Positions 204 to 14,002 of a DNA stretch of 14,910 nt are shown one piece after another. Source of the DNA: Bacillus sp. AFS037270 (GTDB taxonomy: Bacteria; Bacillota; Bacilli; Bacillales_B; DSM-18226); the NCBI RefSeq assembly GCF_002585305.1, contig NZ_NUNF01000050.1, positions 1 to 14,910 of the forward strand, given 5' to 3'. Position 1 is the first letter of the stretch. Each line of letters starts with the position of its first letter. The notes below the pieces were generated by a model. It saw only the letters and a list, made by a program, of their open reading frames with translations. It ran no database searches and was not told the DNA's origin. A program made the translations under genes and the position numbers.

Positions 204-1481
204 TTACTTTTGATGATTTATTCCTTTCCTCACTGAATCAAACTCCACCCTCCTCTTCAAGCTATTTTTTAAAGTAAAGAGCAGGAATAACATACCTCCA
301 AAAGCGGGAACAAGATAAGTTGATATATGGGTTAAAAGGAAGCCGGAGGTCACCATCGCAACTGGAAGGAGAACCTTTCCTATACTACTGCCAATACTCA
401 GCACCCTGCCCCTGTACTCATCTGGAATCTCCTTTTGCATCATATAGGAAAATGGGATATCAATCAGCGCCACAGCAGCACCGAAAAGGAACATAACGAT
501 ACTGTAAAAAATGACTAAATAAATTTCATTGAAGCCTTCCATCATCACCGGAATGCTTGTGATCATCATGAGAACAGATAAAGATATATTTAAATATCGA
601 AGAAGAATGGGATATGCAATCTTATTTGTGATTTTTTTAACCAGCAGGGCCCCTAGAATCATACCCACAGGAAATGATCCTTCAATGATGCCAAAATCCT
701 TTGCGCCAAGTTGGAAAATGGTATTAATGATATATGGGATTGGAACCATCACCGCAAAGCCGAGAAAAAAATTCAAGGAAATTAACACGATAAACAAATC
801 CAGAATTTTTCTCCTCACGATTAAATAATGAAATCCTGCCTTGATCTCGTTCATAAAAAGAATTCTTCTCTTCGGTTGGCTTTCACGTAACGAAGGTTTA
901 CCCGACATAAAATGAATAAACAATATGGCAACACCAGAAAGGATAAAGGAAATCCCATTCATTAGGATAAAAACCCTAATATCAAAAATGGCAAAAACAA
1001 TCCCCCCTAACATCGGCCCCATGATCGAAGATACAGAATCAATGACTTTACTAAGGGAATTAATGTTCATCAACTTTCTTTCCGTGACAATGTTCGGTTT
1101 TGCTGACTCCATTCCGACTGCAAAAAAGGTGCTAAACACTGTCATCAGTAGGGTTGCCGTATAAATGAGAATTAGGTTTAACCCCCAAATGGTACTTACC
1201 ACATAAACTAAAACGAATAGCAGTCCATTTAACAAATCCATGGAGACTATTAATCTCTTTTTATTGAATTTATCAGCTATAACTCCCGCGAACGGATTGA
1301 TGACAACCATTGGGATAATCCCTAAAATTAATGTAGCCGCGAAGCTTAACGCCGAGCCCGTCAATTTTAATACATAAAGACTTATCGCAAATTGATAAAT
1401 GGCCGTTCCAAATACTGAGATTGTCTTTCCTGCAGCATAAAGATAAAGATTTTTCCGTTCTAGTTGTTCGTTTATATTCAT
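204..1481 (-). CDS. MFS transporter, drug/siderophore-exporter-like (MFS_3 type)
   Basis: A predicted 425-residue integral membrane protein of about 12 hydrophobic segments, probably a proton-driven small-molecule exporter. The loop after the second segment carries a recognisable MFS motif A (GVIADKFNKKR, residues 66-76). A second conserved stretch typical of this exporter group is QKEIPDEYRGRV (349-360). The start at 1481 is chosen because AAGAGGTGG lies 7 bases upstream; an in-frame ATG at 1544 has no ribosome binding site. It is 116 bp downstream of the MerR-methyltransferase gene on the same strand, but a hairpin terminator lies between them. A 21-bp palindrome sits just upstream of the start. 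The family is clear. The substrate is not visible; drug efflux is inferred from the MerR-type neighbour. Confidence 0.85.
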   Translation of the reverse strand: MNINEQLERKNLYLYAAGKTISVFGTAIYQFAISLYVLKLTGSALSFAATLILGIIPMVVINPFAGVIADKFNKKRLIVSMDLLNGLLFVLVYVVSTIWGLNLILIYTATLLMTVFSTFFAVGMESAKPNIVTERKLMNINSLSKVIDSVSSIMGPMLGGIVFAIFDIRVFILMNGISFILSGVAILFIHFMSGKPSLRESQPKRRILFMNEIKAGFHYLIVRRKILDLFIVLISLNFFLGFAVMVPIPYIINTIFQLGAKDFGIIEGSFPVGMILGALLVKKITNKIAYPILLRYLNISLSVLMMITSIPVMMEGFNEIYLVIFYSIVMFLFGAAVALIDIPFSYMMQKEIPDEYRGRVLSIGSSIGKVLLPVAMVTSGFLLTHISTYLVPAFGGMLFLLFTLKNSLKRRVEFDSVRKGINHQK

Positions 1482-1498
1482 AATCGTCCACCTCTTTA

Positions 1499-1519
1499 TA
1501 AACTTATAAATAAAGTTTA
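1499..1519. promoter_or_regulatory. 21-bp palindrome upstream of MFS gene, possible operator
   Basis: TAAACTT-N7-AAGTTTA is a perfect 7-bp-arm inverted repeat, 17-38 bases before the MFS start codon and just upstream of its ribosome binding site. It could be a repressor or activator site. On the minus strand a weak TTCACC / TTTATA promoter pair overlaps it. No binding protein can be assigned from sequence alone. Confidence 0.35.
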
Positions 1520-1580
1520 AATTGTTGGGTGAACGCTTCATCAAGCACCAATTTTAATTATTTTTAGGGGTAAAAACATA

Positions 1581-1607
1581 AAAAGATAGGGTTTACCCTA
1601 CCTTTTT
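1581..1607 (-). terminator. intrinsic terminator of the MerR-methyltransferase gene, near-bidirectional
   Basis: On the minus strand the stem is AAAAAGGTAGGG / CCCTATCTTTTT with a TAAA loop and one G-U pair. It ends in a T-run and contains the gene's own TAG stop codon (1598-1600). The flanking A and T runs make it plausible in both directions. Confidence 0.7.
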
Positions 1608-2809
1608 CCAAAAAATGAATACGAATAGATCTCTTCTCCTGGCACAAAAAAATCCTCGAACTTTCCGCCTTTATTAATCGGTTCCGAAATCCACTCATCT
1701 TGAGCCTTATACTTTAAATGGCTGATGTTTTTCCTAATGGTATTGATTGTAAAATTATCTCTGTTTCTTGCCTCAATTTTACTCTTATGACTAAAGTTTT
1801 TAAAAACTAAATAGGAACCTAATAAATATCCGTCCGGTTTCACAAGTGAATCCACTTCATCAAGCAAAAACGCCTCATGCTCGAAGCTATAATTACTTGT
1901 ACCTGTGTGGTCCACCACCATATCAACCATATGACTCGGTAATGGTATTTCTAAGAAATCTGCACAAATAAACAATATTTTTCTTTTTATACCGGCCTTT
2001 TCAAGAAAGTTTTTTAAAAATAAATGCCGTTCGATGTTGTGTTCCACCGCAATATAAAGGCAGTCCTCCGGTAAATCTTGATAGATATTCCGAAGAAAAA
2101 ATCCGGATCCTGAGCCTAATTCGAGGATTACCTTTTTAGTTAAATTCACTTGATCCAGCTTCCTTTTTAGCCAATGTAACCCGATATTCATATTTTCCAA
2201 ATACATAGGATCTGTTTCTTGAATATATTCGGGAATTGAATTTACAAGAGGAGTAACTGGCTTCACACGTTTCCCAACTTTTACTATTCCTGATTCAATC
2301 GGATACTCCTCCCCACAATCACAAGAAAGTTTTCCCTCGATAATTTGATTTCTAGAAATTACCCCATCTTGAAGTGTGAGGTGCCCGGCACATTTCACAC
2401 ATCTCAGCATAGCTAGTACGGTTAAATCGACACCCAGCGCACAACTTGTCTCTTGGGAACTCGTGGATAATAGAGCTACTTTCTGTTTAAGTCTGTCTCT
2501 CGCTTCTGCCAGCATTTTTATTTCGTGGTCTAACTCCTCATATTTTTTCAAAAAAATAGATTGATAGTAGGCATCCACTTCATAATCGGTCAGTTTTGCA
2601 AAATTTTTATAATGAAAAATCATTTTCATTTCATTTAAACGAAAGCCCATCTTTTTTAATTCTAAGATAAGGTCTAGGTCCATTTGACAACGCTCATCAA
2701 AAAAATAATGACCGCCTTGTTTTTCCGGGACGATTAAACCTAAATCCATATAGTGTCTAATCGTGTCGATACTAAGATCATTTACTTTTCCAAATTTCCC
2801 GATCCTCAT
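1598..2809 (-). CDS. MerR-type HTH / Trm112-like zinc ribbon / SAM methyltransferase fusion
   Basis: 403 residues with three parts. Residues 2-70 form a MerR-family winged helix-turn-helix (SIDTIRHYMDLGLIVPEK, then a YFFDE wing-like stretch), followed by a charged helix at 85-115 that resembles the MerR dimerisation coil. Residues 134-178 resemble a Trm112-type zinc ribbon: C137-x2-C140, then C163-x-C165 and GEEYPIESGIV. Residues 225-340 form a class I methyltransferase with SAM motif ELGSGSG (230-236), acidic E256 in AVEHN, and D284. MerR proteins normally end in a ligand-binding domain; here the C-terminus is an apparently intact enzyme. The ATG at 2809 is favoured because GGTGAT lies just upstream; ATG 2815 and GTG 2821 are alternatives. 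It may regulate itself and the downstream MFS gene. The methyl acceptor is unknown. Confidence 0.8.
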   Translation of the reverse strand: MRIGKFGKVNDLSIDTIRHYMDLGLIVPEKQGGHYFFDERCQMDLDLILELKKMGFRLNEMKMIFHYKNFAKLTDYEVDAYYQSIFLKKYEELDHEIKMLAEARDRLKQKVALLSTSSQETSCALGVDLTVLAMLRCVKCAGHLTLQDGVISRNQIIEGKLSCDCGEEYPIESGIVKVGKRVKPVTPLVNSIPEYIQETDPMYLENMNIGLHWLKRKLDQVNLTKKVILELGSGSGFFLRNIYQDLPEDCLYIAVEHNIERHLFLKNFLEKAGIKRKILFICADFLEIPLPSHMVDMVVDHTGTSNYSFEHEAFLLDEVDSLVKPDGYLLGSYLVFKNFSHKSKIEARNRDNFTINTIRKNISHLKYKAQDEWISEPINKGGKFEDFFVPGEEIYSYSFFGKR

Positions 2810-2945
2810 AATCATCACCACTACTATTTATTCTTTATCCATAATGAAAATTCCTACCGTTCATATTCAGTTCATAAACCTGTTTTATTCTTTAACAGAA
2901 TTAGAACTGAAACAAGCGAACAAACAAGGGAATCGAAAATTAGTA

Positions 2946-3002
2946 GTTTACGTCGTTTATTATCAGAATATTTATAAAATATTTAGTTGAATCTACTATA
3001 AT
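2946..3002 (+). promoter_or_regulatory. candidate promoter region for dhaS
   Basis: A perfect SigA -10 hexamer TATAAT lies at 2997-3002, but no good -35 sits 16-18 bases upstream. A weak SigB-like pair, GTTTAC (2946-2951) N14 GAATAT (2966-2971), lies upstream. The gap between the divergent genes (2810-3076) must hold promoters for both; I cannot choose firmly for either. Confidence 0.35.
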
Positions 3003-3076
3003 CACAGTGTTACGATTTTTTATGTGAGCACCACCATGAGTAAATACATAGACAACTACTTTTATGGAGGGATTTT

Positions 3077-4561
3077 ATGAATCAACTAACTGCTGTTTTA
3101 AAAGAAAAGGTAGAAAAGTTTTTAAATGGGAAGAAGAAACTTTTTATTAATGGTGAATTTGTTGAAAGTAAATCTCAGAAAACCTTCGATTCATATAATC
3201 CAGCAACTGGAGAAGTATTATCCTGTGTTTATGAAGCCGGCGCAGAAGATATCGATTTGGCCGTAAAAGCTGCCCGCAAAGCATTTGATGAGGGCCCATG
3301 GTCAAAAATGAGTGCCGCTAACCGCAGCCGGCTGATGTACAAGCTAGCTGACCTAATGGAAGAAAACAGTGAAGAACTAGCTCAATTAGAGACCTTGGAC
3401 AATGGTAAACCAATCCGCGAAACGACTAACGCTGATATTCCATTGGCAATTGAGCATATGCGTTACTATGCAGGCTGGTGTACAAAGATTGTGGGGCAGA
3501 CCATTCCAGTTAATGGTCCATACTTCAACTTTACACGCCATGAGGCTGTTGGGGTGGTTGGCCAAATTATCCCTTGGAACTTCCCTCTTCTCATGGCGCT
3601 GTGGAAGCTTGGTGCGGCCCTTGCAACTGGGTGTACAGTGGTTCTCAAACCTGCTGAACAAACACCATTATCTGCATTATATTTAGCTGAATTAATCCAA
3701 GAAGCCGGCTTCCCAGCAGGTGTTGTCAACATCGTCCCTGGTTTTGGAGAAACCGCAGGCCAGCCGCTTGTCGACCATCCTTTGGTTGATAAAATTGCTT
3801 TTACCGGCTCCACTGAAGTTGGAAAAATGATCATGGCTAATGCTTCTAAAACATTGAAACGGGTCACCCTTGAGCTTGGTGGAAAGTCGCCTAACATCAT
3901 CCTTCCAGATGCTGACCTAACCAAGGCCATTCCTGGTGCACTTAACGGTGTTATGTTCAACCAAGGACAGGTTTGCTGTGCCGGTTCCCGCGTGTTTATT
4001 CAGAAAAAGCAGTTTGATAATGTGGTAGCTGATATGGCTGCCCATGCGGACAAGATCAAACAAGGTGCTGGAATTCATGCGGATACAGAAATTGGACCGC
4101 TTGTATCCGATGAGCAGCAAAAACGAGTGCTCAGCTATATTGAAAAAGGACTTAATGAGGGTGCACAGCTTGTAACGGGCGGCATCAAGCCTCAGGAGCA
4201 AGGCTACTTTGTCTCCCCTACTATCTTTGCCAATGTCCGTGATGAAATGACGATTGCCAAAGAAGAAATCTTTGGACCTGTAATTTCTGCAATGCCTTAT
4301 GATGATTTGGATGAATTAATTAATCGTGCGAACAATAGCGAATATGGCTTGGCAGCAGGTGTATGGACTCGCGATGTGGCGAAGGCGCACTATATTTCTA
4401 GTAAACTTCGTGCCGGAACGGTTTGGGTCAACTGCTACAATGCCTTTGATGCCGCTTCCCCATTTGGCGGATATAAACAATCAGGCATCGGACGTGAAAT
4501 GGGCTCCTATGCACTTAATAACTATACAGAAGTGAAGAGTGTCTGGATTTCCATGCAATAA
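3077..4561 (+). CDS. dhaS: NAD-dependent aldehyde dehydrogenase, DhaS-like
   Basis: A 494-residue cytoplasmic enzyme of the ALDH superfamily that oxidises an aldehyde to the acid with NAD(P)+. All key residues are visible: oxyanion N168 in PWNFP, K191 in KPAEQTP for cofactor binding, the Rossmann GSTEVG (244-249), catalytic base E266 in ELGGKSP, and nucleophile C300 in FNQGQVCCAGSR. Length and sequence follow Bacillus subtilis DhaS closely over the whole protein, as recalled from memory. The start is supported by GGAGG seven bases or so upstream. The gene is transcribed alone, divergent from the MerR fusion. Its 3' flank is a dispersed structured repeat followed by a strong terminator, so its mRNA may carry a ~300-nt structured tail. 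The physiological aldehyde is not determined by the sequence. Confidence 0.93.
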   Translation: MNQLTAVLKEKVEKFLNGKKKLFINGEFVESKSQKTFDSYNPATGEVLSCVYEAGAEDIDLAVKAARKAFDEGPWSKMSAANRSRLMYKLADLMEENSEELAQLETLDNGKPIRETTNADIPLAIEHMRYYAGWCTKIVGQTIPVNGPYFNFTRHEAVGVVGQIIPWNFPLLMALWKLGAALATGCTVVLKPAEQTPLSALYLAELIQEAGFPAGVVNIVPGFGETAGQPLVDHPLVDKIAFTGSTEVGKMIMANASKTLKRVTLELGGKSPNIILPDADLTKAIPGALNGVMFNQGQVCCAGSRVFIQKKQFDNVVADMAAHADKIKQGAGIHADTEIGPLVSDEQQKRVLSYIEKGLNEGAQLVTGGIKPQEQGYFVSPTIFANVRDEMTIAKEEIFGPVISAMPYDDLDELINRANNSEYGLAAGVWTRDVAKAHYISSKLRAGTVWVNCYNAFDAASPFGGYKQSGIGREMGSYALNNYTEVKSVWISMQ

Positions 4562-4562
4562 C

Positions 4563-4830
4563 TAAGAAAAGCGCAAGGCGCTTAGACTTCGGCGACAAGC
4601 ACAAGACGAGCCTGCCGAAAGGTTGTTCTTTAACCTTTTGGACGGATTGATCTAAATGTGGAGGTGACTGTTCTGGGACTCTAGGCTAAGACGCACCCTG
4701 TAAGAAGGAGTTTTTTGCCTTCTTCAGGGGGTGGCTTAGACTTCGAGTCCCAAGGAGACGCAACTGGATAAGCTTGTGACCTCGAGCCGATGGCGCCTGG
4801 AGCTGGACAATTCTCGAAGTCCAAACTTAG
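4563..4830 (+). repeat. dispersed structured intergenic repeat, copy A (long copy)
   Basis: The first 80 bases (4563-4642) match 14831-14910 without gaps, 68 of 80 identical by my count. The shared part includes a 10-bp hairpin CCGAAAGGTT / AACCTTTTGG (4615-4624 with 4632-4641). The 11-mer CTTAGACTTCG occurs at 4581 and 4735, and its partial inverse CGAAGTC at 4815, which suggests imperfect inverted ends. The right boundary is an estimate. It starts one base after the dhaS stop codon. From memory, similar repeats are scattered between genes in Bacillaceae genomes; no transposase is encoded, so it is either a non-autonomous element or a structured RNA repeat. Confidence 0.7.
4675..4751 (+). 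other. long imperfect stem-loop inside repeat copy A
   Basis: Nested complementary blocks form a 77-base hairpin: GGGACTC (4675) with GAGTCCC (4745), CTAAG (4686) with CTTAG (4735), CACCCTG (4694) with CAGGGGGTG (4725), and AAGAAGG (4702) with CCTTCTT (4718). A short loop holds six T. It would be very stable as RNA. Whether every copy of the repeat has it cannot be seen, because copy B is cut by the window edge. Confidence 0.7.
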
Positions 4831-4853
4831 ACATTCTTATCTTTTGAAGGATG

Positions 4854-4895
4854 AGGGCTGAATCTGTTTCCCCAGATCAGCCCTTTTTCTTTTTG
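4854..4895 (+). terminator. intrinsic terminator after dhaS and the repeat
   Basis: AGGGCTGA (4854-4861) pairs with TCAGCCCT (4877-4884). Inner TCTG/CAGA pairs extend the stem, and a T-rich tail follows. It is the first strong terminator downstream of dhaS. Confidence 0.85.
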
Positions 4896-4908
4896 TTTTT
4901 AAAAAAAG

Positions 4909-4933
4909 GTTTAGAGCCAGGAAGCTCGGGTAC
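4909..4933 (+). promoter_or_regulatory. SigB-type promoter of gsiB
   Basis: GTTTAG (4909-4914), 13-base spacer, GGGTAC (4928-4933). This fits the Bacillus SigB consensus GTTTAA-N12-15-GGGTAT with one mismatch in each box. It lies 54 bases before the gsiB start, and gsiB is a classic SigB-regulated gene in B. subtilis. Confidence 0.8.
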
Positions 4934-4987
4934 ATAAAGAGTGTAAGTCAAATAGCAATTCCAAATAACACTAGGAGGGATTTTATT

Positions 4988-5269
4988 ATGGCAAACAAAG
5001 AAAAAGAAAACAGAGACAACAGTATGACAGTGGAAGAAGCAGGCCGTAAAGGCGGAGAAGAGACTTCTCGTACACATGACAAGGAATTTTACCAAGAAAT
5101 CGGTCGTAAAGGTGGAGAAGCCACTTCAGAAAACCACGACAAAGAATTTTATCAAGAAATCGGACGTAAGGGCGGAGAAGCCACCTCTAAAAACCACGAT
5201 AAAGAATTTTATCAGGAAATCGGAGAAAAAGGCGGAAAAGCTCGAGCAGAACAACGAGATGATGATTAA
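4988..5269 (+). CDS. gsiB: general stress protein GsiB, KGG-repeat hydrophilin
   Basis: A 93-residue, very hydrophilic, cysteine-free protein built from an exact 20-residue repeat of the form GRKGGEATSxNHDKEFYQEI. KGG occurs at residues 21, 41, 61 and 81: three full units plus a degenerate final one. This is the GsiB / KGG stress-repeat family, induced by heat, salt, ethanol and glucose starvation in B. subtilis and thought to act as a protective hydrophilin. The recalled B. subtilis protein is about 123 residues with more units, so this copy is shorter. AGGAGG lies 9 bases before the start. It has its own SigB-type promoter and terminator, so it is monocistronic. The biochemical role of the family is not settled. 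Confidence 0.93.
   Translation: MANKEKENRDNSMTVEEAGRKGGEETSRTHDKEFYQEIGRKGGEATSENHDKEFYQEIGRKGGEATSKNHDKEFYQEIGEKGGKARAEQRDDD
5042..5257 (+). repeat. in-frame 60-bp tandem repeat within gsiB
   Basis: Units begin at 5042, 5102 and 5162, with a partial diverged unit from 5222. The period is exactly 60 bp, encoding the 20-residue KGG repeat. Third-codon positions differ between units, so the repeat is old rather than a recent slippage. Confidence 0.9.
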
Positions 5270-5280
5270 GGATTAGGCAT

Positions 5281-5311
5281 AAAGGGAGAAGACCATTCTT
5301 CTCCCTTTTTT
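5281..5311 (+). terminator. intrinsic terminator of gsiB
   Basis: AAAGGGAGAAG (5281-5291) pairs with CTTCTCCCTTT (5298-5308) around a six-base loop. The T-run continues to 5311. Confidence 0.9.
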
Positions 5312-5460
5312 ATTAAAAACTACTACCCCACTCTATTAAATGTTCCCCCTACTTAATCTCCTTTAATTGAATCTGCACATTTTGTATTATGACAAATTCT
5401 ACTTTTTGATTAACAAAGATTTAATTTTCTGAGAAAAATCCATCTGTTTCTCCATAAAAA

Positions 5461-5469
5461 TGGTAGAAT
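5461..5469 (+). promoter_or_regulatory. candidate extended -10 promoter of the coiled-coil operon
   Basis: TGGTAGAAT contains the TGN extension and a 5/6 match to TATAAT. It lies 52 bases before the next start codon. There is no clear -35, which extended -10 promoters can lack. Confidence 0.4.
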
Positions 5470-5520
5470 AATCTGGTAATCTGTTTTCATAAGTAGAAAT
5501 GCAGGAGTTGGATTCTAAAA

Positions 5521-6612
5521 ATGAATTCTACATTGATTGATTTCCATAAAAAACGTTTTGAATGGGCCTTTAAGGCGAAAGAGGAATTCCTCAACCATTT
5601 CGATCCATATAAGAATGAAGGACTTTCCGACTCACTCGAAGACCTTTTGCATATTCTGCAAACGGACCTTGAAAACCCAAATGAGCCTTCTTTCGACCGC
5701 CTCAACAAATTTTTTCAAGAAGCGGACGAAGAAATGAAAATGAAGCTGAAAAACTATGAAAAACAAATCGAACCATACGAGCTTTTAATCACAAAACAAT
5801 CATCCATTATTGACCATAAAAAAGAAGAAGCCCGAATACAAGAGGACGGATTTGCCATTGAGATTGATGACTATGACCGATTCCTCAAACAGATTGAGCT
5901 TAAACATACGGAATCCGACCATATTTGGGTATTGGTGGATGATACCATTGAGTATACTCCCCAGGATCGAAAAGCGAGCATTATCAACGAAGATGTGTCT
6001 AGATTGCAGATAGCGGTAGAAAGAGACTTAGGGACTTCCATCCTTATACTTAAACAGGAAGCTCATTTTTTTAAAATAGAGCTAGCAACTCCTTTAGAGC
6101 TTCCCTTCGTCCCTCCGATTCCAGCGATCGAGCAAAAAATCGACGCCTTCTGGTTTAAGAACACCTATGAAAAGGCCCTGTTCAAAATGCGCTCCCAAGC
6201 ACATGATTGGGTTACGGAGATGTATCAAAATTATAATCGCTTATTAACATCGATTTTATATGAAATAACAACGCAAAGAGAGCAGGCTGTCAAAGAGGCA
6301 GAGGCATCAAAGCTTGAGTACAGACAAAAGATAAACACTCTTGAAAACCAATTGGTTACATATCAAAAGGAAGAAGCGCAGCTAAAAGCCCGCTATCAAA
6401 AGGCCTGCCAAGTGTGGAATCAATTCCAGAAGCATGCGTCTCAGTTGCAGGGCTATTTGATCAAGCATTGGCTGGAGTATAAGGAAGAATTGCAGCAGGA
6501 TTTCCTATATGGAAATGCAGAAGGCCGCTTTCTTGCGGCACAATATTTGCAGCTTTTGCGGAAAGACGGTCAGAAGATAATCGAATCTGTAAACAGAGGA
6601 GGCGATGTATAG
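5521..6612 (+). CDS. unrecognised cytoplasmic coiled-coil protein, first gene of a two-gene unit
   Basis: 363 residues that I do not recognise. There is no signal peptide or membrane segment. The N-terminal 130 residues are charged and helical. Residues 134-190 look more strand-like (HIWVLVDDTIEY, TSILILKQE, FFKIELATP), and residues 196-202 are a proline-rich turn (FVPPIPAI). Residues 210-340 are long amphipathic helices with coiled-coil character around 250-300. No catalytic motif is seen. The ATG at 5521 is the only good start. GGAG is 13 bases upstream, a rather long spacing, so translation may be modest. The TAG stop directly abuts the ATG of the next gene, so the two are almost certainly co-transcribed and translationally coupled, and probably function together. 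Confidence 0.75.
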   Translation: MNSTLIDFHKKRFEWAFKAKEEFLNHFDPYKNEGLSDSLEDLLHILQTDLENPNEPSFDRLNKFFQEADEEMKMKLKNYEKQIEPYELLITKQSSIIDHKKEEARIQEDGFAIEIDDYDRFLKQIELKHTESDHIWVLVDDTIEYTPQDRKASIINEDVSRLQIAVERDLGTSILILKQEAHFFKIELATPLELPFVPPIPAIEQKIDAFWFKNTYEKALFKMRSQAHDWVTEMYQNYNRLLTSILYEITTQREQAVKEAEASKLEYRQKINTLENQLVTYQKEEAQLKARYQKACQVWNQFQKHASQLQGYLIKHWLEYKEELQQDFLYGNAEGRFLAAQYLQLLRKDGQKIIESVNRGGDV

Positions 6613-7305
6613 ATGGTTCAAACCAATCTCCCTACAAAAAGTGAATATGAAAATGCGGTTAATGAATTAAAGAAGCTGAACGAAGACATTTTTTACGGTG
6701 ATTTAAAAGAAAAAATGCATTCATTAGAAGGCAGAAACAAGGAACTGTTGGAAAAAGCCGTAACAACGGTGGATACCGTTTCTAACGAAATTGCTGAATT
6801 CACGCGCGAGCTAACGGTTTCAGCCGAAAACAATCGGAAATTTTTGGAGCAAAATGAGGCGTTTTTCACTCTCACAAAAGATGACTTAGCGAAAACACAT
6901 GAAAAATTAGCTACCCACGTCACCGCACTGTTGGCAATGGATAACCGATTGCAGCAGCTGCAGCAATCGTACAAAGAAATGTTCCACAAACATTCCGAGT
7001 CCATCAATAGCATTCTGGTGGTGCGTGAAGAGGCGCTAATCAACAAAGTCGTGTATCAACTCGAGTGCCTCGCCCAAAAACAGCTAGCGGAACTCGAGCT
7101 TCACAAGGCGGAAATAGAACAATTGCGAGAACAAATGGAGTCGGTGAGCAGCCACAATCAAGAGACACTCCAAACCCTTTCCAACCAGATGACGAGCAAA
7201 CAAGACTTGGCAAAGCTGGAGAAGAGAAGCGCGTTTAAAATGAACTTGCTATTGGGCGTGGTGGTAGTGGAAGCAATCTTAATTGGCATAAAATTTTTCA
7301 TGTAA
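6613..7305 (+). CDS. unrecognised coiled-coil protein with C-terminal membrane anchor
   Basis: 230 residues. Residues 10-205 are almost wholly helical and rich in E, K, Q and L with heptad-like spacing. Residues 210-228 (FKMNLLLGVVVVEAILIGIKFF) form a single hydrophobic segment two residues from the end, so this looks like a tail-anchored protein with the bulk in the cytoplasm. GAGGAGG lies 10 bases before the start and is contained in the end of the preceding gene; the two genes touch (TAG then ATG). There are no enzymatic motifs. The likely role is a structural or scaffolding partner that brings the upstream protein to the membrane, which is an inference only. A strong terminator follows. 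Confidence 0.75.
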   Translation: MVQTNLPTKSEYENAVNELKKLNEDIFYGDLKEKMHSLEGRNKELLEKAVTTVDTVSNEIAEFTRELTVSAENNRKFLEQNEAFFTLTKDDLAKTHEKLATHVTALLAMDNRLQQLQQSYKEMFHKHSESINSILVVREEALINKVVYQLECLAQKQLAELELHKAEIEQLREQMESVSSHNQETLQTLSNQMTSKQDLAKLEKRSAFKMNLLLGVVVVEAILIGIKFFM

Positions 7306-7310
7306 GAGCT

Positions 7311-7343
7311 AGGGGCTGTCCAATTTGGACAGCCTCTATTTTT
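7311..7343 (+). terminator. intrinsic terminator of the coiled-coil operon
   Basis: AGGGGCTGTCC (7311-7321) pairs with GGACAGCCTCT (7327-7337) around AATTT. A T-rich tail follows. Confidence 0.9.
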
Positions 7344-7360
7344 GTGGATGTGGATGGGAT

Positions 7361-7472
7361 TTGTTAATATAATCAATTTTTTGTTAATATCTGCTGAATT
7401 TTTGTTAATATATTTAAATTTTTGTTAATATGTCTCACTTTTTTGTTAACATCCGCTATTTTTTGTTAATAT
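7361..7472 (+). repeat. phased array 1: TTGTTAATAT x6 at 20-21 bp period
   Basis: TTGTTAATAT starts at 7361, 7381, 7402, 7422 and 7463, and TTGTTAACAT at 7443. Steps are 20, 21, 20, 21 and 20 bases, close to two turns of B-DNA. The intervening ~10 bases differ between units except for a T-run before most motifs. The array sits between the operon terminator and the SigB promoter of the next gene. Confidence 0.9.
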
Positions 7473-7509
7473 CTACAAATCTCTTGTCCTCCACTCTTCC
7501 ATTGAACAG

Positions 7510-7535
7510 GTTTCATCCACCCTCACAAAGGGTAC
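7510..7535 (+). promoter_or_regulatory. SigB-type promoter of the PfpI-like gene
   Basis: GTTTCA (7510-7515), 14-base spacer, GGGTAC (7530-7535). The -10 box is identical to that of the gsiB promoter in this window. It lies 35 bases before the start codon. Confidence 0.75.
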
Positions 7536-7570
7536 TTTAATATGGAGTCTTAGAAAAGGAGTGGATTGCT

Positions 7571-8086
7571 ATGAGCAAAAAAATTGCTGTGGTAGTAACA
7601 GATCATTTCGAGGATTCCGAGTACAGTGAGCCCGTCCAGGCCTTTAAGGAAAATGGGCACAAGATCACTGCAATCGAAATGGAAAAAGGTAAAACCGTGA
7701 AAGGAAAACAGGGACAGAGTGAAGTAATCATCGATAAAAGTATTGATGACGTCTCTCCAGAGGACTTTGATGCCCTATTCATTCCTGGTGGATTTTCACC
7801 GGATATCCTCCGTGCAGATGAGCGTTTTGTCCAATTCGCCAAAGCCTTCATGGATGCTAAAAAACCTGTATTAGCCATTTGCCACGGACCTCAGCTGCTC
7901 ATCACAGCGGAAACGCTTGAGGGGCGTGATGTTACCGGGTACAAGTCCATTCACGTGGATTTAAAGAATGCTGGCGCTAATTTGCATGACAAAGAGGTTG
8001 TCGTGTGCCAGAATCAACTGGTCACTAGCCGGCAGCCGGATGATATACCGGCCTTTGTCCAAGAATCATTAAGAATATTAGGGTAG
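7571..8086 (+). CDS. PfpI/DJ-1 superfamily protein (general stress protein 18-like)
   Basis: A 171-residue cytoplasmic protein of the DJ-1/PfpI fold. The nucleophile elbow is AICHGP with C104 and H105. The acidic partner is probably E14 in HFEDSEY, and the oxyanion-loop GG is in IPGGFSPD (71-78). Family members have been described as intracellular proteases, deglycase/glyoxalase-type enzymes or chaperones, and the activity here cannot be decided from sequence. It most resembles the Bacillus YfkM/YraA group; yfkM (GSP18) is SigB-dependent, which agrees with the SigB-type promoter upstream. AAAAGGAG lies 9 bases before the ATG. The gene is monocistronic and shares a hairpin with the convergent DoxX gene. 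Confidence 0.9.
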   Translation: MSKKIAVVVTDHFEDSEYSEPVQAFKENGHKITAIEMEKGKTVKGKQGQSEVIIDKSIDDVSPEDFDALFIPGGFSPDILRADERFVQFAKAFMDAKKPVLAICHGPQLLITAETLEGRDVTGYKSIHVDLKNAGANLHDKEVVVCQNQLVTSRQPDDIPAFVQESLRILG

Positions 8087-8090
8087 CATC

Positions 8091-8118
8091 AAGGCAGAAG
8101 GAACATCCTTCTGCCTTT
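8091..8118. terminator. shared hairpin between convergent genes
   Basis: AAGGCAGAAGGA (8091-8102) pairs with TCCTTCTGCCTT (8106-8117). The T-tail is short on both strands, so termination may be partial. Confidence 0.7.
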
Positions 8119-8125
8119 GTTGGTG

Positions 8126-8671
8126 TTAGCCATTTATTTTAAATGTTTCCTTGTGATCTAACTCTATGATCGTCATTCTTTTATTTCCTTTCGGTATTGC
8201 TTGTCGAACGAAAGGAATCACCCACCGATCAAGACCAAATTTCCCAGCATTGAAGCCTGCAAAAAGGATGATACCGCCTAACAAGATATCCACTGGGTTA
8301 GAAGAAATGGCTCCAGCAAACAAATAGGAGAAATTCATCATTAGTCCAAAAAACATAGCTGCAGTAGTTAAGCATCCTAAGATTAGGCCTAAACCAACTA
8401 AAAATTCACCAACAGGGATAACTGTATTAAAGACATGAACGTTAGGTAACGCAACCTGTTTTAAGAAATCAATATACCAACCAAATACAACTGCTCCGTC
8501 CGGCCCTTTCACTGGATTTGCGATAGCTCCTTTCAGGAACCCCGAAGCATCAAAATCCCCGCTTATTATCTTGCCCCAACCAGCCGCGAGCCAACTATAT
8601 CCAAGATATAAACGAAGAACTGTTAATATAATAGAAGCAATCTTGTTTTGTCTTAACCAATCTACTACCAT
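8126..8671 (-). CDS. DoxX-family membrane protein
   Basis: 181 residues with four predicted membrane segments (about 11-33, 82-104, 106-122 and 127-144). Family-typical stretches include RLYLGYSWLAAGWGKI (20-35), GEFLVGLGLILG (88-99) and a FDASGFLKG-like periplasmic region. DoxX/DoxD relatives include the quinone-linked thiosulfate dehydrogenase subunit; most bacterial DoxX proteins have no proven reaction. The start at 8671 is chosen because GGAGG lies six bases upstream, and the ATG at 8686 overlaps that site. Convergent with the PfpI-like gene, it has a 591-bp upstream gap that carries repeat arrays. No clear promoter was found; a weak TTGTTA-N15-TAAAAT pair lies close upstream. Confidence 0.85.
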   Translation of the reverse strand: MVVDWLRQNKIASIILTVLRLYLGYSWLAAGWGKIISGDFDASGFLKGAIANPVKGPDGAVVFGWYIDFLKQVALPNVHVFNTVIPVGEFLVGLGLILGCLTTAAMFFGLMMNFSYLFAGAISSNPVDILLGGIILFAGFNAGKFGLDRWVIPFVRQAIPKGNKRMTIIELDHKETFKING

Positions 8672-8846
8672 TTGCAACCTCCCCATAGAAAAGTAATTTT
8701 ATGTACGGTCTTACCATAACAAATTTATTTTTCCGTGCGGGAAGTTTCTTCACAATTTAACAAACTCTTAAATCTATTTAAAATAATGTAATTAATTATA
8801 TATTTCGTTACACTGTTGCAATGGAAAGGACTTCATTAGTAAGGAT

Positions 8847-8931
8847 TGCCGACAAAATGTATTACCATTTCTATTAACATGCGATGCCCAAACTTCTCAT
8901 GACAATTGGAATGCCCCCCCGTTCATGACAA
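8847..8931 (-). repeat. weak array 3: TTGT-led units at 25-26 bp period
   Basis: On the minus strand TTGTCATGA starts at 8931 and again at 8905. ATGTTAATA follows at 8880 and TTGTCGGCA at 8855, so the steps are 26, 25 and 25 bases. The first two units also share a GGGCAT block. The later units are degenerate, so only the first two are secure. Confidence 0.45.
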
Positions 8932-9058
8932 GTATCGGCTCCCTTCATTGAGCACTCGATTGAATAATAGGCTGCTTTTTACAGCATTTCCGAGAAATAG
9001 ATCCATCCATCAATCTGAAACCTAAATTCCGCTTGAAAATTGGATGCGCAGAGGGGAA

Positions 9059-9243
9059 TTCTACAAATAACATGCTGTATTCTACAAATTGGAGCGATAA
9101 TTAAACGAAATTTTTAGTAATTCTACATTACTTCGCATGAATTCTACAAAATTTGGAAATAAATTTCCAACAAAACAATTAATGAGTACAAATTCTACAA
9201 AGCTCAGGAGGTTTTCTACGAAATCAGGTGGTTATTCTACAAA
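9059..9243 (-). repeat. phased array 2: TTTGTAGAA (plus strand TTCTACAAA), 20-21 bp period
   Basis: Plus-strand TTCTACAAA starts at 9059, 9080, 9142, 9193 and 9235, with near copies at 9121 (7/9) and 9214 (8/9). Degenerate copies at 9101 (6/9) and about 9165 fill the gaps. Steps are 21, 21, 20, 21, 23, 28, 21 and 21 bases. It lies immediately 3' of phzF, whose stop codon is embedded in a related TTTTGTAATC. Confidence 0.85.
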
Positions 9244-9262
9244 ATACGGTAAATATACAAGA

Positions 9263-10144
9263 TTACAAAACCACTTCAAATTCCCTAACAAACACCGCAT
9301 TCCCAGTAATCTCAATATCATAACTATCCTCCGCCTTAGCAACATGAACGGTAACCCGCCCATCTTTCCCCATTTCCTGCCCCTGCTCTACCACTAGATT
9401 CAATGAATCTTCAAAATCGGTCTTTATGTATTTGGCATAATAAGCCCCCATGACACCTGATGCGGTTCCTGTGACAGGATCCTCGATGGTCCCGGAATAT
9501 GGGGAAGAAAAGTGACGGCCGTGCAGGTCGGCTTCCGGATGATAGGTTTCCAAACAAATGGGATGAATAGAGGCTTGCGGCATTTCTCTTAAAATAGCCG
9601 GGAACAACTCATTATTGGGTTTCATTTTTTCAAAGGATGCTAGTTTTCTTATTGGGACTAATAGTGTCCAAATCCCCGTACTTCCATAGAGAATCGGCAG
9701 ATCCGCATCGATCTCCTCTTTCGTTAACCCTATCGCACTTGCTAACTCTTCCTTAGAACCGTTAAACTCTTTAAACTGTGGTGCTGCCTGTTTCATCGTA
9801 ATAAATGATTGCTCATCTATTTTGATGGGTAAAATGCCTGCTTTTGTTTCGATGGTAATATCAGTCTTATCGCCTAACTGCCCGCTCGTTTTTAGAGCAT
9901 AAACCATTGCCATGGTTCCATGTCCGCACAAGTTCATTTCGTGGCCGGGCGTAAAAAAGCGGATTCTAAGGTCCGCGATGTCTGATTTAACGGGAAAAGC
10001 GGTCTCATTAAACCCTACTTTTAACGCAACCTCTTGCATTTCCTCCTCCGTCAGATCATCCCCATTTAAAACGACCCCTGCCGGATTCCCTTTATTCGGT
10101 TCCTTACTAAATGCGTCATATTGAAACACCCTAACGGATTTCAC
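9263..10144 (-). CDS. PhzF-family isomerase/epimerase-like protein
   Basis: 293 residues of the PhzF / diaminopimelate-epimerase fold. The catalytic glutamate of the family is E47 in GFNETAF. Conserved motifs are GNPAGVV (19-25), [15 protein letters not shown] (63-77) and [10 protein letters not shown] (221-230). The family includes the phenazine enzyme PhzF, but most Bacillus members (the YfhB group) have unknown substrates and lie outside phenazine clusters; no phenazine genes are seen here. The start is taken as GTG 10144 because AAGGGGG lies 10 bases upstream and the protein then begins [11 protein letters not shown], as in the family. ATG 10186 has no ribosome binding site. It follows the SAM methyltransferase gene on the same strand, with a terminator between. 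Its 3' end runs straight into phased array 2. Confidence 0.9.
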
Positions 10145-10176
10145 CTTTTTAAGTCCCCCTTTTTTTCTACCAATAG

Positions 10177-10194
10177 TAAAATACATCTATTTTA
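10177..10194. promoter_or_regulatory. AT-rich palindrome upstream of phzF
   Basis: TAAAATA-CATC-TATTTTA has perfect 7-bp arms around a 4-base centre, 33-50 bases before the GTG start. It could be an operator or part of the phzF promoter. AT-rich palindromes also arise by chance in such sequence. Confidence 0.3.
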
Positions 10195-10202
10195 AGTAGA
10201 TT

Positions 10203-10229
10203 AAAAAAAGTCACATGTACTAGTGACTT
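10203..10229 (-). terminator. intrinsic terminator of the LCM-type methyltransferase gene
   Basis: On the minus strand AAGTCAC pairs with GTGACTT around an eight-base loop and is followed by a run of T (plus-strand A, 10203-10209). It separates the methyltransferase gene from phzF. Confidence 0.75.
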
Positions 10230-10241
10230 AGGTAATTTCTA

Positions 10242-11054
10242 TTACACAAATCGTAAATGCACAAACTTCAACATCTTGATTAAATCGACAAGCCGTACCA
10301 TTAGCCGCGTACCGCTTTCCCACTGCTTGCTGACCGGAATCCCTTTAAAATACGGTTCAGACGATACGACCTTGATGTTAGGCGACCAGCTTTGTAGTAC
10401 TTTGGGATTGTTGACATAGAAATACATTTTGGCGCCCTTGTTTCCTGTTTTTTCAACGGTCCGATTGGAGATGTTGACTGCAAATTTCGATTCTGCATCA
10501 AAGAACAACTCGCCTCCCGGAAAACGTGTTGCCATTGCTCGTAACATTTCTTTGAGCTGACTTTCCTGAAAATAATAGAAAACTCCAGCAGAGATAAAAA
10601 GGATACCATCCTCCTTGTTAAAAATCACATCGTCAAACCAGGATACATCGAAAAAGGATTTGGCAATGCTGTTGTTTCTAGGTGTGTCTGTAATCAGCGT
10701 TTGGCGGAAGGCAATCGCATCAGGTAAATCAAGGTTATACCAGTTAATCGTGCCGTTATCCACCCTTGAAAAAGTGGTATCAAGCCCCGCACCGATGTTG
10801 ACAATCGTAGCCCGAGGATGTTTTTGGATAAATGCCCGGACCGTATCGTCAATTTTTCGAGCTCGTACAATATAGCTGATGCCGCCATATTCCCCAAATG
10901 TCTTGGCTATTTCGGTAAAATCAACCTCACACCTGGCAATGATTTCGATCGCTTCTTTGTCGTATAGGATATCCGGGTTCTTCTCACTGGCAGTGGCGCG
11001 TCCCCAAAGAGGGATGAGCATGGTGGCTTGAACGGATTGTAGGTTTATCGTCAC
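10242..11054 (-). CDS. class I SAM methyltransferase, leucine carboxyl methyltransferase (LCM/Tcmp) family
   Basis: A 270-residue soluble protein. The SAM-binding motif is VNIGAGLDTTFSRV (85-98), the family's GAGLDTR-type signature with T in place of R. The ribose-binding acidic residue lies in WYNLDLPD (105-112), and SAGVFYYF (155-162) matches the family's motif IV region. Bacterial relatives are O-methyltransferases of polyketides and other small molecules; the acceptor here is not evident. The start is GTG 11054, with AAGGAGG 8 bases upstream and no better ATG. It is divergent from the purine permease gene. A possible structured leader precedes it (11120-11186). It may belong with phzF in a small metabolic pathway, but the terminator between them argues for separate control. 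Confidence 0.85.
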   Translation of the reverse strand: MTINLQSVQATMLIPLWGRATASEKNPDILYDKEAIEIIARCEVDFTEIAKTFGEYGGISYIVRARKIDDTVRAFIQKHPRATIVNIGAGLDTTFSRVDNGTINWYNLDLPDAIAFRQTLITDTPRNNSIAKSFFDVSWFDDVIFNKEDGILFISAGVFYYFQESQLKEMLRAMATRFPGGELFFDAESKFAVNISNRTVEKTGNKGAKMYFYVNNPKVLQSWSPNIKVVSSEPYFKGIPVSKQWESGTRLMVRLVDLIKMLKFVHLRFV

Positions 11055-11119
11055 TTATCGCTCCTCCTTCAGATATTTTTAAATAAGCTTCATGATTTGT
11101 TAATAGTTTGTTCATCTAT

Positions 11120-11186
11120 GGGGTGTAAGATAAACCTATGAAATTGATTTTACCTCTTTTTCATAAATGACCCCCTTTTAATTATA
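11120..11186 (-). promoter_or_regulatory. candidate promoter and structured 5' leader of the methyltransferase gene
   Basis: Minus-strand TATAAT lies at 11186-11181 with no good -35. A transcript starting near 11175 would open with GGGGGT, complementary to ACCCC at 11124-11120. Inside, TATGAAA (11165-11159) can pair with TTTCATA (11143-11137), and GTAAAAT (11153-11147) with ATCTTAC (11131-11125). These two pairings interleave, as in an H-type pseudoknot. It matches no riboswitch I know. Pairings of this size can occur by chance in AT-rich sequence. Confidence 0.3.
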
Positions 11187-11196
11187 TATTGTTTGG

Positions 11197-11228
11197 TCCA
11201 GCTGGTCTTCAGCTGGATATTTTTTTTT
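11197..11228 (+). terminator. orphan intrinsic terminator upstream of the permease gene
   Basis: TCCAGCTG (11197-11204) pairs with CAGCTGGA (11210-11217) and is followed by TA and nine T. It is oriented rightwards, but no rightward gene precedes it: the upstream gene reads leftwards and starts at 11054. It may end an unseen small RNA or act as a leader attenuator. Confidence 0.75.
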
Positions 11229-11252
11229 GTTTATGTAACCTTACATTTTTGT

Positions 11253-11301
11253 TATAATAACCCCCGGCATAAGTTAAATAAATGAACTTAATGCGGGTGG
11301 G
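11253..11301 (+). promoter_or_regulatory. candidate promoter and hairpin leader of the permease gene
   Basis: A perfect TATAAT lies at 11253-11258, with weak TTTATG 17 bases upstream (11230-11235). An imperfect inverted repeat follows at once: GCATAAGTT (11267-11275) against AACTTAATGC (11285-11294), flanked by CCCCC and GGGTGGG that can extend the stem. It would form at the 5' end of the mRNA. It does not match the purine riboswitch consensus. Confidence 0.45.
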
Positions 11302-11333
11302 AGAGGGAAATCGCGAAAGTGTGATAATAAACA

Positions 11334-12623
11334 ATGAAAGGGGTATTTAAACTTAAGCAGCATGAAACCAATATTAGAAAGGAGGTTATAGCAGGGTTAA
11401 CCTCATTTTTTTCGATCGTCTATATTCTTGCCGTCAACGGAAAGATTCTTGAAGATGCTGGAATCCCTTTAGAAGCTGGAATTATTGCAACTGTACTATC
11501 ATCGTTTATCGGATGTTTACTGGTTGCCTTTATCGCCAATGCACCATTAATTATAGTTCCGGGGATGGGGATTAATGCCTTATTTACGTTTACGATTGTG
11601 GGTTCGTTAGGGCTTGATTATAAGGAGGCTTTAGGGGCTGTTGTCCTTTCTGGCATACTTTTTGTTATCGTTGCCTTTACGAAATTACACAGCATCCTAA
11701 CAAGAGCGATTCCAGATTCATTAAAAGAATCGATATCAGTTGGTATTGGCCTATTTATTGCCTTCATTGGTCTTCAAAAAAGTGGGATTGTTGTCGGGAG
11801 CCCGACTAATTTTGTTTCCCTTGGTGAGTTATCTTCGCCTATTGTGTTGGCTTCGATTATTAATCTCATCACTGCGTTATTTCTGTTCTTAAAGAAAATA
11901 CCGGGGAATTTTTTAATCACCATCATCCTAGGTACGATTGTTTCCTATTTTTTTGGACTGGTTGATTTTAAAGAGATGGACACTAGCTTCATTTCCTTTG
12001 AGAGCTATAAGGATGTGTTCCTAAGCAGCCATTTTGGAAAGTGGTCTTTCCTTCCATTTTGGTCCGCTGTCTTCTCACTGGTGTTAGTGCTTGTCTTTGA
12101 AAATATCGGGTTGGTGCATTCCCAAGTGAATGGGATGCTTCAGGCACCCGAAAAGAGCGGGAAATCTTTAAAGGCAATCTCGATTTCCACGATTGTTTGT
12201 GGATTGTTAGGCACAAGTCCTGCTGTTTCGACGGTTGAAACAGCGGCGGGTATTACCACGGGCGGCAGAACTGGGTTAACCTCTGTTGTAACAGGTTCAC
12301 TTCTTCTGTTATCTCTTTTTTTCATGCCGTTTATCAAATTAGTACCAGAAACCGCGATCACTCCGATTCTGATTATTATCGGGGGATTGATGATGACAAA
12401 TGTAGTAAATATCGATTTCTCTGATTTTACTGAAGCATTTCCGGCCTTTCTGGTGATCATCATGATTCCATTAACCTATAGTATTGTTGATGGAATTGCT
12501 TTCGGATTTATCGCTTATCCGCTTGTTAAAGTTTTTTCTAATAAATTAAATCAGATTTCACTTTCAAGCGTCATTATTTCACTGTTGTTCTTTACCAATT
12601 TTCTGCTTCATGCAGTTGGTTAG
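11334..12623 (+). CDS. AzgA-like (NCS2) purine/nucleobase permease
   Basis: A 429-residue integral membrane protein of the AzgA branch of nucleobase transporters, alignable from its first residues with Bacillus PbuG/PbuO. Family landmarks are GLTSFFSIVYILAVN (21-35), IIVPGMGINALFTF (73-86), a GTS...VETAAG block (293-306) and GGRTG (310-314). The usual FDTxGT motif in the middle reads FENIGL (255-260), and the loop after the first segment is shorter than in PbuG. It may therefore have different specificity from a hypoxanthine/guanine permease. The ATG at 11334 fits the family's N-terminus, and an in-frame stop lies six bases upstream. No proper ribosome binding site precedes it (AAGTGTGAT only), so translation may be weak or controlled. 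It is convergent with nupC. Confidence 0.88.
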   Translation: MKGVFKLKQHETNIRKEVIAGLTSFFSIVYILAVNGKILEDAGIPLEAGIIATVLSSFIGCLLVAFIANAPLIIVPGMGINALFTFTIVGSLGLDYKEALGAVVLSGILFVIVAFTKLHSILTRAIPDSLKESISVGIGLFIAFIGLQKSGIVVGSPTNFVSLGELSSPIVLASIINLITALFLFLKKIPGNFLITIILGTIVSYFFGLVDFKEMDTSFISFESYKDVFLSSHFGKWSFLPFWSAVFSLVLVLVFENIGLVHSQVNGMLQAPEKSGKSLKAISISTIVCGLLGTSPAVSTVETAAGITTGGRTGLTSVVTGSLLLLSLFFMPFIKLVPETAITPILIIIGGLMMTNVVNIDFSDFTEAFPAFLVIIMIPLTYSIVDGIAFGFIAYPLVKVFSNKLNQISLSSVIISLLFFTNFLLHAVG

Positions 12624-12640
12624 GAAAATGAACTAATAAG

Positions 12641-12677
12641 AAGAAGACCTCTTAAATACCAAGAGGTCTTCTTTTTT
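12641..12677. terminator. bidirectional terminator between permease and nupC
   Basis: AAGAAGACCTCTT (12641-12653) pairs perfectly with AAGAGGTCTTCTT (12661-12673). A T-run follows on the plus strand and a shorter T-rich run on the minus strand. Confidence 0.9.
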
Positions 12678-12684
12678 ACTAGTG

Positions 12685-13866
12685 TTATAAAACTACACTT
12701 ACAATCACGGATGATAAAACACTTACTAAAGTTGCTCCATACAATAACTTTAAGCCAAATCGAGCGACTGTATTACCCTGCTTTTCGTTTAAGCTTTTTA
12801 CTGCTCCGGCAACGATTCCGATGGAAGAAAAGTTTGCAAACGAGACAAGGAATACTGAAATAATCCCTAATGTACGTGGACTAAAGCTAGATTGTATTTT
12901 CGTTAAATCCATCATGGCTACGAACTCATTCGTGACAAGCTTCGTTGCCATAATTCCTCCAGCCCGGACGGTTTCTGAAAATGGGACACCCATGATAAAG
13001 GCAAGCGGCGAAAAAACATATCCTAAAATTTCCTGGAATGAAATCCCGAAAATCAGATCAAATACGTTATTAATTCCAGCAATTAACGCCACAAAACCGA
13101 TTAACATCGCCCCAACAATGACGGCTACTTTAAACCCATCGATAATATATTCCCCTAGCATTTCAAAGAAGCTTTGTTTTTCCACCTCTTGGATCACCAG
13201 TATATCCTCACTTGGATTTACCTGATAGGGGTTAATGATCGAGGTTATGATAAATCCGCCAAATAAATTAATGACCAGTGCGGTGACCACATATTTCGGT
13301 TCAATCATTGTCATATAGGCTCCGACGATCGACATTGAGACGGTAGACATTGCGGAGGCACACAACGTATATAAACGATTCGCAGGGAGCAGACCCAGCT
13401 GTTTCTTCACCGTGATAAACACTTCAGATTGACCAACGATTGCCGAGGCCACTGCGTTATATGATTCCAATTTCCCCATACCATTCACTTTGCTTAGCAA
13501 TAAACCAATCGCCTTCATAATGAAGGGAAGAATTTTTAAATACTGAAAAATGCCAATTAAGACGGAAATGAACACAATCGGAAGCAGGACCGTCAGAAAG
13601 AACGGCGCTTCTCCTTTATTCGCAAGCCCGCCAAACACAAACGATACCCCACTGCCGGCATACTCTAATAATTTACTAAACACCTCAGCAAACCCTTTAA
13701 TTAAAACTAAACCGAATGTTGTATTTAATAATAAAGCAGACAAAATGACTTGAATCACGATCATAAGGAAGATCGGCTTCCATTTAATCTGTTTCCGATT
13801 ATTGCTGGCCAGATAGGCTAGTCCAAAAACTACTAATAATCCAATAATGGCAATGATGTACCTCAT
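12685..13866 (-). CDS. nupC: NupC-type concentrative nucleoside transporter
   Basis: 393 residues, the same length as recalled for B. subtilis NupC, with about eight to ten hydrophobic segments. CNT-family landmarks are GQSEVF (145-150), SAMSTVS (171-177), NLFGGFI (200-206), TNEFVAM (312-318) and FANFSSIGI (343-351). These fit cation-coupled uptake of nucleosides. The start at 13866 follows GGAGG by nine bases and gives the family's short N-terminus; ATG 13935 lacks a site and would add 23 residues. In B. subtilis nupC lies with dra and pdp, but here it stands alone, convergent with a purine permease and divergent from a TrmB-family regulator. The upstream region carries a cre-like site and two palindromes, pointing to catabolite and local control. 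Confidence 0.92.
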
Positions 13867-13897
13867 AGTTAAGTTCCTCCATGCTGTCTTTCCTTTT

Positions 13898-13923
13898 TGA
13901 ATTCGCTTACAATTATAAGCGAA
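13898..13923. promoter_or_regulatory. cre-like site and 22-bp palindrome over the nupC -10 region
   Basis: TGAATTCGCTTACA (13898-13911) matches the CcpA cre consensus TGWNANCGNTNWCA at 13 of 14 positions. It overlaps the palindrome TTCGCTTA-N6-TAAGCGAA (13902-13923), whose centre holds a minus-strand TATAAT (13917-13912), the best -10 for nupC. The -35 is weak, so activation or repression here is plausible. Confidence 0.5.
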
Positions 13924-13939
13924 AATTTTCAACAACGAT

Positions 13940-13961: not shown

Positions 13962-14002
13962 AACCTTGTAAAGGCAGATCACATTTTATTCATAAGAAAT
14001 AT

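Follow-up and report, generated by a model that had tools for sequence, protein, structure and literature searches.

Genomic context and structure of the array

The DNA analysed here, called the window, is a stretch of 14,910 nucleotides from Bacillus sp. AFS037270 (contig NZ_NUNF01000050.1, positions 1 to 14,910). It carries on the plus strand a 230-aa ORF (6613..7305), with a coiled-coil look by eye and a weak, sub-cut-off match to DUF4407, followed by a gene of the DJ-1/PfpI family (pfpI, 7571..8086; PF01965, 5.6e-54), the close relatives of whose product place the window among Neobacillus, with 92-94% identity for the best seven loci. Between these two genes lie, also on the plus strand, an intrinsic-terminator-like element of the upstream ORF (7310..7343), formed by a 13-pair stem (7310-7338) and a subsequent T run, a phased array of six units (7360..7472) and the sequence GTTTCA-N14-GGGTAC (7510..7535), which we take, from the SigB consensus, its sequence and the upstream regions of 18 loci, to be a SigB-like promoter of pfpI. 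Rfam gave no match in the whole window.

An earlier note on this DNA had described six phased copies of a motif with a single base change and steps of 20, 21, 20, 21 and 20 bp, which is confirmed at 7360-7472. The units, TTTGTTAATAT, start at 7360, 7380, 7401, 7421, 7442 and 7462, the fifth one being TTTGTTAACAT, with one T>C change. Their core, TTGTTAATAT, is found at 7361, 7381, 7402, 7422 and 7463 and as the variant TTGTTAACAT at 7443, the copies being separated by gaps of 10-11 bp. All six units are on the same strand and the motif is without self-complementarity. Both strands of the whole window contain nine TTGTTAATAT matches with at most one mismatch, against a mean of 2.68 in 200 dinucleotide shuffles, none of which had nine. 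The conserved unit extends over at least 11 bp (TTTGTTAATAT, from 7360) and is mostly preceded by two or three extra T, so that the spacers, described earlier as not conserved, are not wholly unconserved. The array was also said to lie just after a terminator, and the stem does end 21 bp ahead of it. The gap of 38 bp between the array (which had been placed 38-149 bp upstream of a SigB promoter) and the SigB-like sequence is likewise borne out, but this promoter occurs independently of the array, since a similar sequence is present upstream of pfpI in arrayless Neobacillus loci (e.g. L001).

A second array of the same class, whose different motif reads TTTGTAGAAT on the minus and ATTCTACAAA on the plus strand, occupies 9058..9244, with units at 9058, 9079, 9120, 9141, 9192, 9213 (variant) and 9234, thus at intervals of 21, 41, 21, 51, 21 and 21 bp. 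It is overlapped by an ORF (9137-9397) encoding STK every seven codons, probably a spurious by-product of its 21-bp period, and phased arrays may be mis-annotated as genes in this way. Heptad-coding repeats were ruled out as an account of the arrays, as mixtures of 20- and 21-bp steps break the reading frame. Other repeats of the window include an 80-bp repeat of the AAGCGCAAG.. type, another dispersed element with two copies 85% identical at 4563-4642 and 14831-14910, and a KGG stress-repeat gene (5045-5241) with 60-bp coding repeats, arrays of this period being present with different copy numbers in L001, L002, L003 and L005.

Conservation of motif and phase at orthologous sites

The pfpI locus of Neobacillus cucumis V32-6 (L002) carries the same six units as the window, with five of five steps identical. 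Between the two sequences, 3 of 66 motif positions are different, against 20 of 47 positions between the motifs (Fisher p 1.4e-6), through point changes in spacers of equal length; among the fourfold-degenerate sites of pfpI, 28 of 66 are different. As the spacers diverge like the fourfold sites of pfpI while the motif and the steps are kept, motif and phase look to be under selection at this locus and the spacers neutral. Unit number and spacer identity, which the earlier note had singled out for comparison between strains, thus gave equal units with diverged spacers for this pair, and a unit number that varies between species: a single unit is found at the pfpI site of N. cucumis DSM 101566 (L003) and none in L001, L005 and L006. 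Given this high turnover, any function of the array at this site would be dispensable.

Other sites taken as orthologous formed 15 pairs, 8 of which agree in unit number. These 8 gave a weaker contrast in the same direction, with 31 of 490 motif positions differing against 80 of 299 in equal-length spacers; six of them stem from a single site compared among four genomes, and one pair takes in a degenerate, T-rich unit that precedes the array. At these sites, 28 of 41 steps were equal and the 13 others differed mostly by 1 bp.

The TTGTTAATAT family in Neobacillus

A search of 193 genomes of the taxonomic family for a TTGTTAATAT..TTGTTAATA pair with any gap of 2-32 (steps 12-42) returned pairs in 11 of them. 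In five carriers (N. drentensis, two N. cucumis and two Bacillus sp.), all 60 pairs are at steps 19-21 or 41-42. In each of the six further genomes there is a single pair (steps 24, 27, 23, 21, 16 and 15); these look like background, although the pair at step 21 may be real; the reversed pattern gave at most one match in any genome. The free drift of spacing against which the earlier note had cautioned is therefore not seen, TTGTTAATAT pairs keeping their phase in the five carriers, and its suggestion of a spaced-repeat family gains support from the many dispersed loci.

Many non-orthologous Neobacillus copies have in common a G-rich 5' end (..GTTGT.GGGGGA), the unit TTTGTTAATAAAGCGTTAAAGC at their 3' end and part of their spacers in the same order; some whole elements have therefore been copied. 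The window array is without the terminal unit TTTGTTAATAAAGCGTTAAAGC. It had no match in plasmid and phage collections, nor had a three-unit array pattern in viral contigs. N. drentensis L138 contains two TTGTTAATAT arrays in the same direction (13775 and 17695), about 3.9 kb apart, and N. cucumis DSM 101566 a single one (L214:8664, minus strand), which has the left-hand surroundings of the first and the right-hand surroundings of the second, as would be expected if the two arrays had recombined with loss of the intervening genes, or if these genes had been gained.

A wider class of arrays at helical periods

An open scan of periods from 12 to 90 bp over 2.34 Mb of Bacillaceae and relatives recovered 34 arrays outside ORFs. 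Their periods are 20 (nine arrays), 21 (eight), 40 and 42 (one each), 51 (three), 52 (nine) and 28, 39 and 60 bp (once each), the one at 60 bp being most likely the KGG gene. Counting those at 40 and 42, 31 of the 34 fall at 20-21 or 51-52 bp, about two and five helical turns. Twelve further arrays of the same scan lie inside ORFs, with periods of 18 (one), 21 (four), 27 (one), 51 (two), 52 (one) and 60 bp (three). The surroundings of pfpI at 80 loci (1.54 Mb) contained 19 arrays with at least four copies of a 10-mer at steps 19-22, against zero to two in each of seven other step windows, and 16 of the 19 lie outside ORFs of at least 150 codons; these surroundings being orthologous, not all of these arrays are independent. 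The 51-52 bp class, of about five turns, accounts for 12 of the 34 arrays outside ORFs (found in L007, L009, L018, L025, L073, L113, L117, L120 and L135), and inverted repeats are visible in two (L018 and L073) of the four such arrays viewed.

The same search over 800 kb of N. drentensis returned four arrays of four different words at steps 19-22, one at 39-43 and seven at 50-53, and none in four off-period step windows. Save for the separate 51-52 bp class, phased series are nearly absent off-period. The distances between identical 9-mers in the same 800 kb are raised at 21 bp (102 against 2 in shuffles) and not at 20 bp (10 against 9), with larger peaks at 102, 52 and 39 bp coming from other repeats. 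In Bacillus tequilensis, no array at steps 19-22 was present in 259 kb plus L040, where about one or two would be expected at the N. drentensis density, so that this species may still have such arrays.

The array families are dispersed over many loci and clade-specific. N. drentensis has three of them. According to tallies of pair spacing made by eye, the CGCTATA family has all of its 84 pairs, in 10 genomes, at steps 19-20 or 39-40 (11-41 being allowed), TTGTAGAAT has 147 of 150 among the matches listed (of 306) at 19-22 or 40-41 (12-41 being allowed), and TGCCGATAA has 31 of 34 at 20-21 or 41. Of the CGCTATA-type pairs, 75 belong to Mesobacillus subterraneus and 9 to Cytobacillus oceanisediminis, the remaining eight of the 10 genomes having none; TTGTAGAAT and TGCCGATAA pairs occur in 18 and 9, respectively, of 61 genomes of the genus, some of them being single chance-like pairs. 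A G-n-ATA core (G, one to four bases, then ATA in conserved columns) recurs in unrelated lineages and is present in 9 of 13 distinct families, against 1.9 expected from a strict background (P 7e-6), for a pattern picked after the motifs were seen.

Position relative to genes

Arrays of the Mesobacillus and Neobacillus sites are mostly located 3' of genes, in either orientation. They avoid divergent intergenic regions, where 2 of 33 sites are found against 75 of 353 in the background (p 0.018); the 33 sites comprise 20 from Mesobacillus with both neighbours and 13 from Neobacillus merged by eye, and one of the two divergent sites may duplicate another counted site. Between tandem genes, the motif has the direction of the genes at 15 sites and the opposite direction at 7, a split which favours recognition in DNA over RNA. 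In two N. cucumis genomes, for example, the TTGTTAATAT array is antisense to both flanking genes (L213:8337 and L217:8719), which we take from their sequence to be pgk and tpiA. No common theme was apparent by eye among the genes flanking the arrays. Independence of orientation, together with the exact helical spacing, favours recognition in double-stranded DNA.

Hairpin and insertion sequence in Mesobacillus

Most CGCTATAAAA arrays open with an inverted repeat, AACTGGAAA..TTTCCAGTT, directly ahead of the first motif. When pairing was scored on 24 of 29 extracted segments, a few of them from Cytobacillus, the nine core pairs of this hairpin were kept in 19-24 of the 24, one pair varying as C-G, T-G and T-A, and the four outer pairs in just 6-14. 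Two of 30 hairpin copies precede CGCccATAA or CGCcaATAA, which indicates that one hairpin can be followed by different words, and five of 30 precede no unit. The Mesobacillus arrays have no common 3' end by eye, and an Rfam search of five Mesobacillus loci gave nothing on the arrays and a single FMN riboswitch match elsewhere.

An IS256-type insertion sequence with a PF00872 transposase is present in M. subterraneus (L203:6319-7860 and L252-L271). In its draft genome, 19 of the 20 recognisable ends of this element, one of them weak, lie inside phased arrays: 13 of the 20 have at least two CGCTAT motifs in the adjoining 110 bp, against 35 of 3108 background windows, and six further ends were assigned by eye to sister arrays of the CGCCAATAAA type, that of L260 having just one full copy. 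The end in L261 is in no array. The assembled copy has the 8-bp motif segment TATAATAA on both sides. Arrays at contig ends of Mesobacillus had been considered as marks of rRNA operons, an idea rejected when they proved to be insertions of this element. Y1 transposase genes (PF01797, Y1_Tnp) were found in 10 of 12 genomes and had no match in the Mesobacillus draft genome (G100), which holds 75 pairs.

Comparison with known repeats

As a kind, the arrays can be placed beside STAR and REP/BIME elements, from which they are set apart by motif and spacer length for the former and by the palindromic unit for the latter. A study on the STAR elements of Staphylococcus describes direct repeats scattered between genes, in which a short conserved motif recurs a variable number of times with spacers particular to each locus; they are present at dozens of loci per genome in species-specific locations, with a 'start signature' ahead of the first motif. 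The study gives a GC-rich 14-bp consensus, T(G/A/T)TGTTG(G/T)GGCCC(C/A), with spacers of at least 40 bp, and reports no known function for STAR (PMC3532100). Firmicutes intergenic repeats such as STAR are still without a known function. The window family is similarly dispersed, with a variable unit number and locus-specific spacers, although some spacers are common to loci of one family. It differs by its unit TTTGTTAATAT, without GGCCC; the present arrays moreover consist of 10-11 bp motifs with 9-11 bp gaps, a two-turn period and a different motif per clade. REP sequences are described as dispersed, regularly spaced in BIMEs, protein binding sites and targets of insertion sequences (PMC2817692, PMC1525189). 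The last property has a counterpart in the 19 of 20 IS ends (one weak) located in arrays, for Mesobacillus only and not for the window family. However, REPs are palindromes in alternating orientation tied to RAYTs, whereas the present arrays are non-palindromic direct repeats.

Other phased or modular systems were also considered. The BOX elements of Streptococcus pneumoniae are modular and dispersed, composed of end modules and of internal units that vary in number, boxB being of about 45 bp; the likeness lies in this modular dispersed organisation, but boxB units are not phased short motifs. Plasmid iterons and phased operator arrays are direct repeats of about 20 bp binding one protein in helical register, whereas the window array adjoins an ORF without significant family and pfpI, with no replication gene, and its family is found at dispersed chromosomal loci. 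A CRISPR or another spacer-acquiring array was ruled out, orthologous spacers differing by point changes at equal length. The G-n-ATA frame resembles the reverse complement of the DnaA box (TTATNCACA), but words such as CGCCGATAA differ at three positions of the conserved part and DnaA boxes were rejected. So were ComK boxes (AAAAN5TTTT), because A and T blocks occur mainly in the CGCTATAAAA family, among the families looked at, and their spacing is different. No description of these phased arrays was recognised in the licensed PMC texts, of which part of longer result sets was covered.

Possible nature of the arrays

Judging from these comparisons of sequences, the window array probably belongs to a Bacillaceae-wide intergenic class whose word, about 10 bp long, particular to each lineage and frequently built as G-n-ATA(A), recurs at 20-21 bp while the DNA in between varies freely, and would provide sites for a putative DNA-binding protein. 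Each unit would be the binding site of one sequence-specific molecule, the two-turn spacing would bring adjacent molecules into contact, almost on one side of the helix, and these could then form a short cooperative nucleoprotein strip. The protein-binding array suggested by the earlier note is consistent with the constrained motif and phase; its view that all motifs share one face of the helix is valid between neighbouring units, but families with a strict 20.0-bp period would rotate by about 34 degrees with each unit if a helical turn takes 10.5 bp. By analogy with REP/BIME elements binding host proteins, it may tentatively be proposed that such strips mark the boundaries of transcription units or organise the nucleoid. 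An equally speculative extension, which we hold to be possible rather than probable, would have a helix-quantised class of two-turn and five-turn arrays read by putative fast-evolving DNA-binding proteins, with clade words on a G-n-ATA frame, the arrays serving as chromosome or transcription boundaries and as safe harbours for insertion sequences.

Among the other explanations, a selfish dispersed element of MITE or REP type, with a mobilising enzyme recognising the motif or the 5' hairpin and no host function, is unlikely but has the most in its favour: the common ends and ordered spacers of non-orthologous Neobacillus copies, the 5' hairpin common to most Mesobacillus copies and a location 3' of genes typical of tolerated repeats would all fit. 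However, an inert copy should decay evenly, whereas at the vertically inherited pfpI locus the motif is about ninefold more conserved than the spacers; the absence of matches to Y1/RAYT transposase genes in the Mesobacillus draft genome and of a visible common 3' end in its arrays also argues against this explanation. That the motifs would act in the transcript (3' UTR or read-through RNA), where they might form a multimeric site for RNA binding or a region of processing or termination, is rather improbable. The position of many arrays after a terminator and the pairing kept through C-G, T-G and T-A in the Mesobacillus hairpin are in line with such a role, but an RNA element is at odds with the antisense motif at 7 of 22 tandem sites (e.g. 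pgk/tpiA in L213), with the Rfam results in the window and on the Mesobacillus arrays, with minimum-energy folds of 13 array regions, which share no structure by eye, and with an exact spacing of 20-21 bp unexpected for single-stranded sites.

A neutral minisatellite born of slippage, with a motif common only because the copies are young, appears very unlikely. Duplication does contribute, as seen from the alternating two-unit blocks of L036, L058 and L064 and the unit number varying between species, which qualifies the earlier statement that the array is not simple slippage. Against slippage, the spacers are mostly unrelated within arrays of the Neobacillus and Mesobacillus families, in which the motif is near-perfect. 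Moreover, between species the spacers have reached neutral divergence and the motif has not, one word recurs at many loci, and periods beyond 20-21 and 51-52 bp are nearly absent. The least credible alternative, to which we give hardly any weight, is intrinsically curved DNA, in which phased T tracts and TA steps would bend the helix without sequence-specific binding. T tracts do recur every 20-21 bp and, with the Bolshoy wedge angles, the modelled bend of the window array is 82 degrees against 43 for its shuffles, and the contour/end ratio of 10 among 20 arrays lies above that of 95% of their own shuffles. The curvature raised by the earlier note may thus apply to some families, but is not significant in the window, where 7-14% of the shuffles are as bent, and almost all shuffles of L036 are more bent than L036 itself. 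Since wedges add up in any phased repeat, a bend excess is expected in such models anyway, and bending alone does not account for the conservation of one exact 11-bp word.

Under the preferred reading of the arrays as sites for a DNA-binding protein, each of them is a short bait of known phase and offers a direct molecular handle for pulling out this protein. The concentration of periods at two and five helical turns across genera would be hard to explain by slippage alone, and words that differ between clades yet share a frame are a hint of a DNA-binding factor in rapid evolution.
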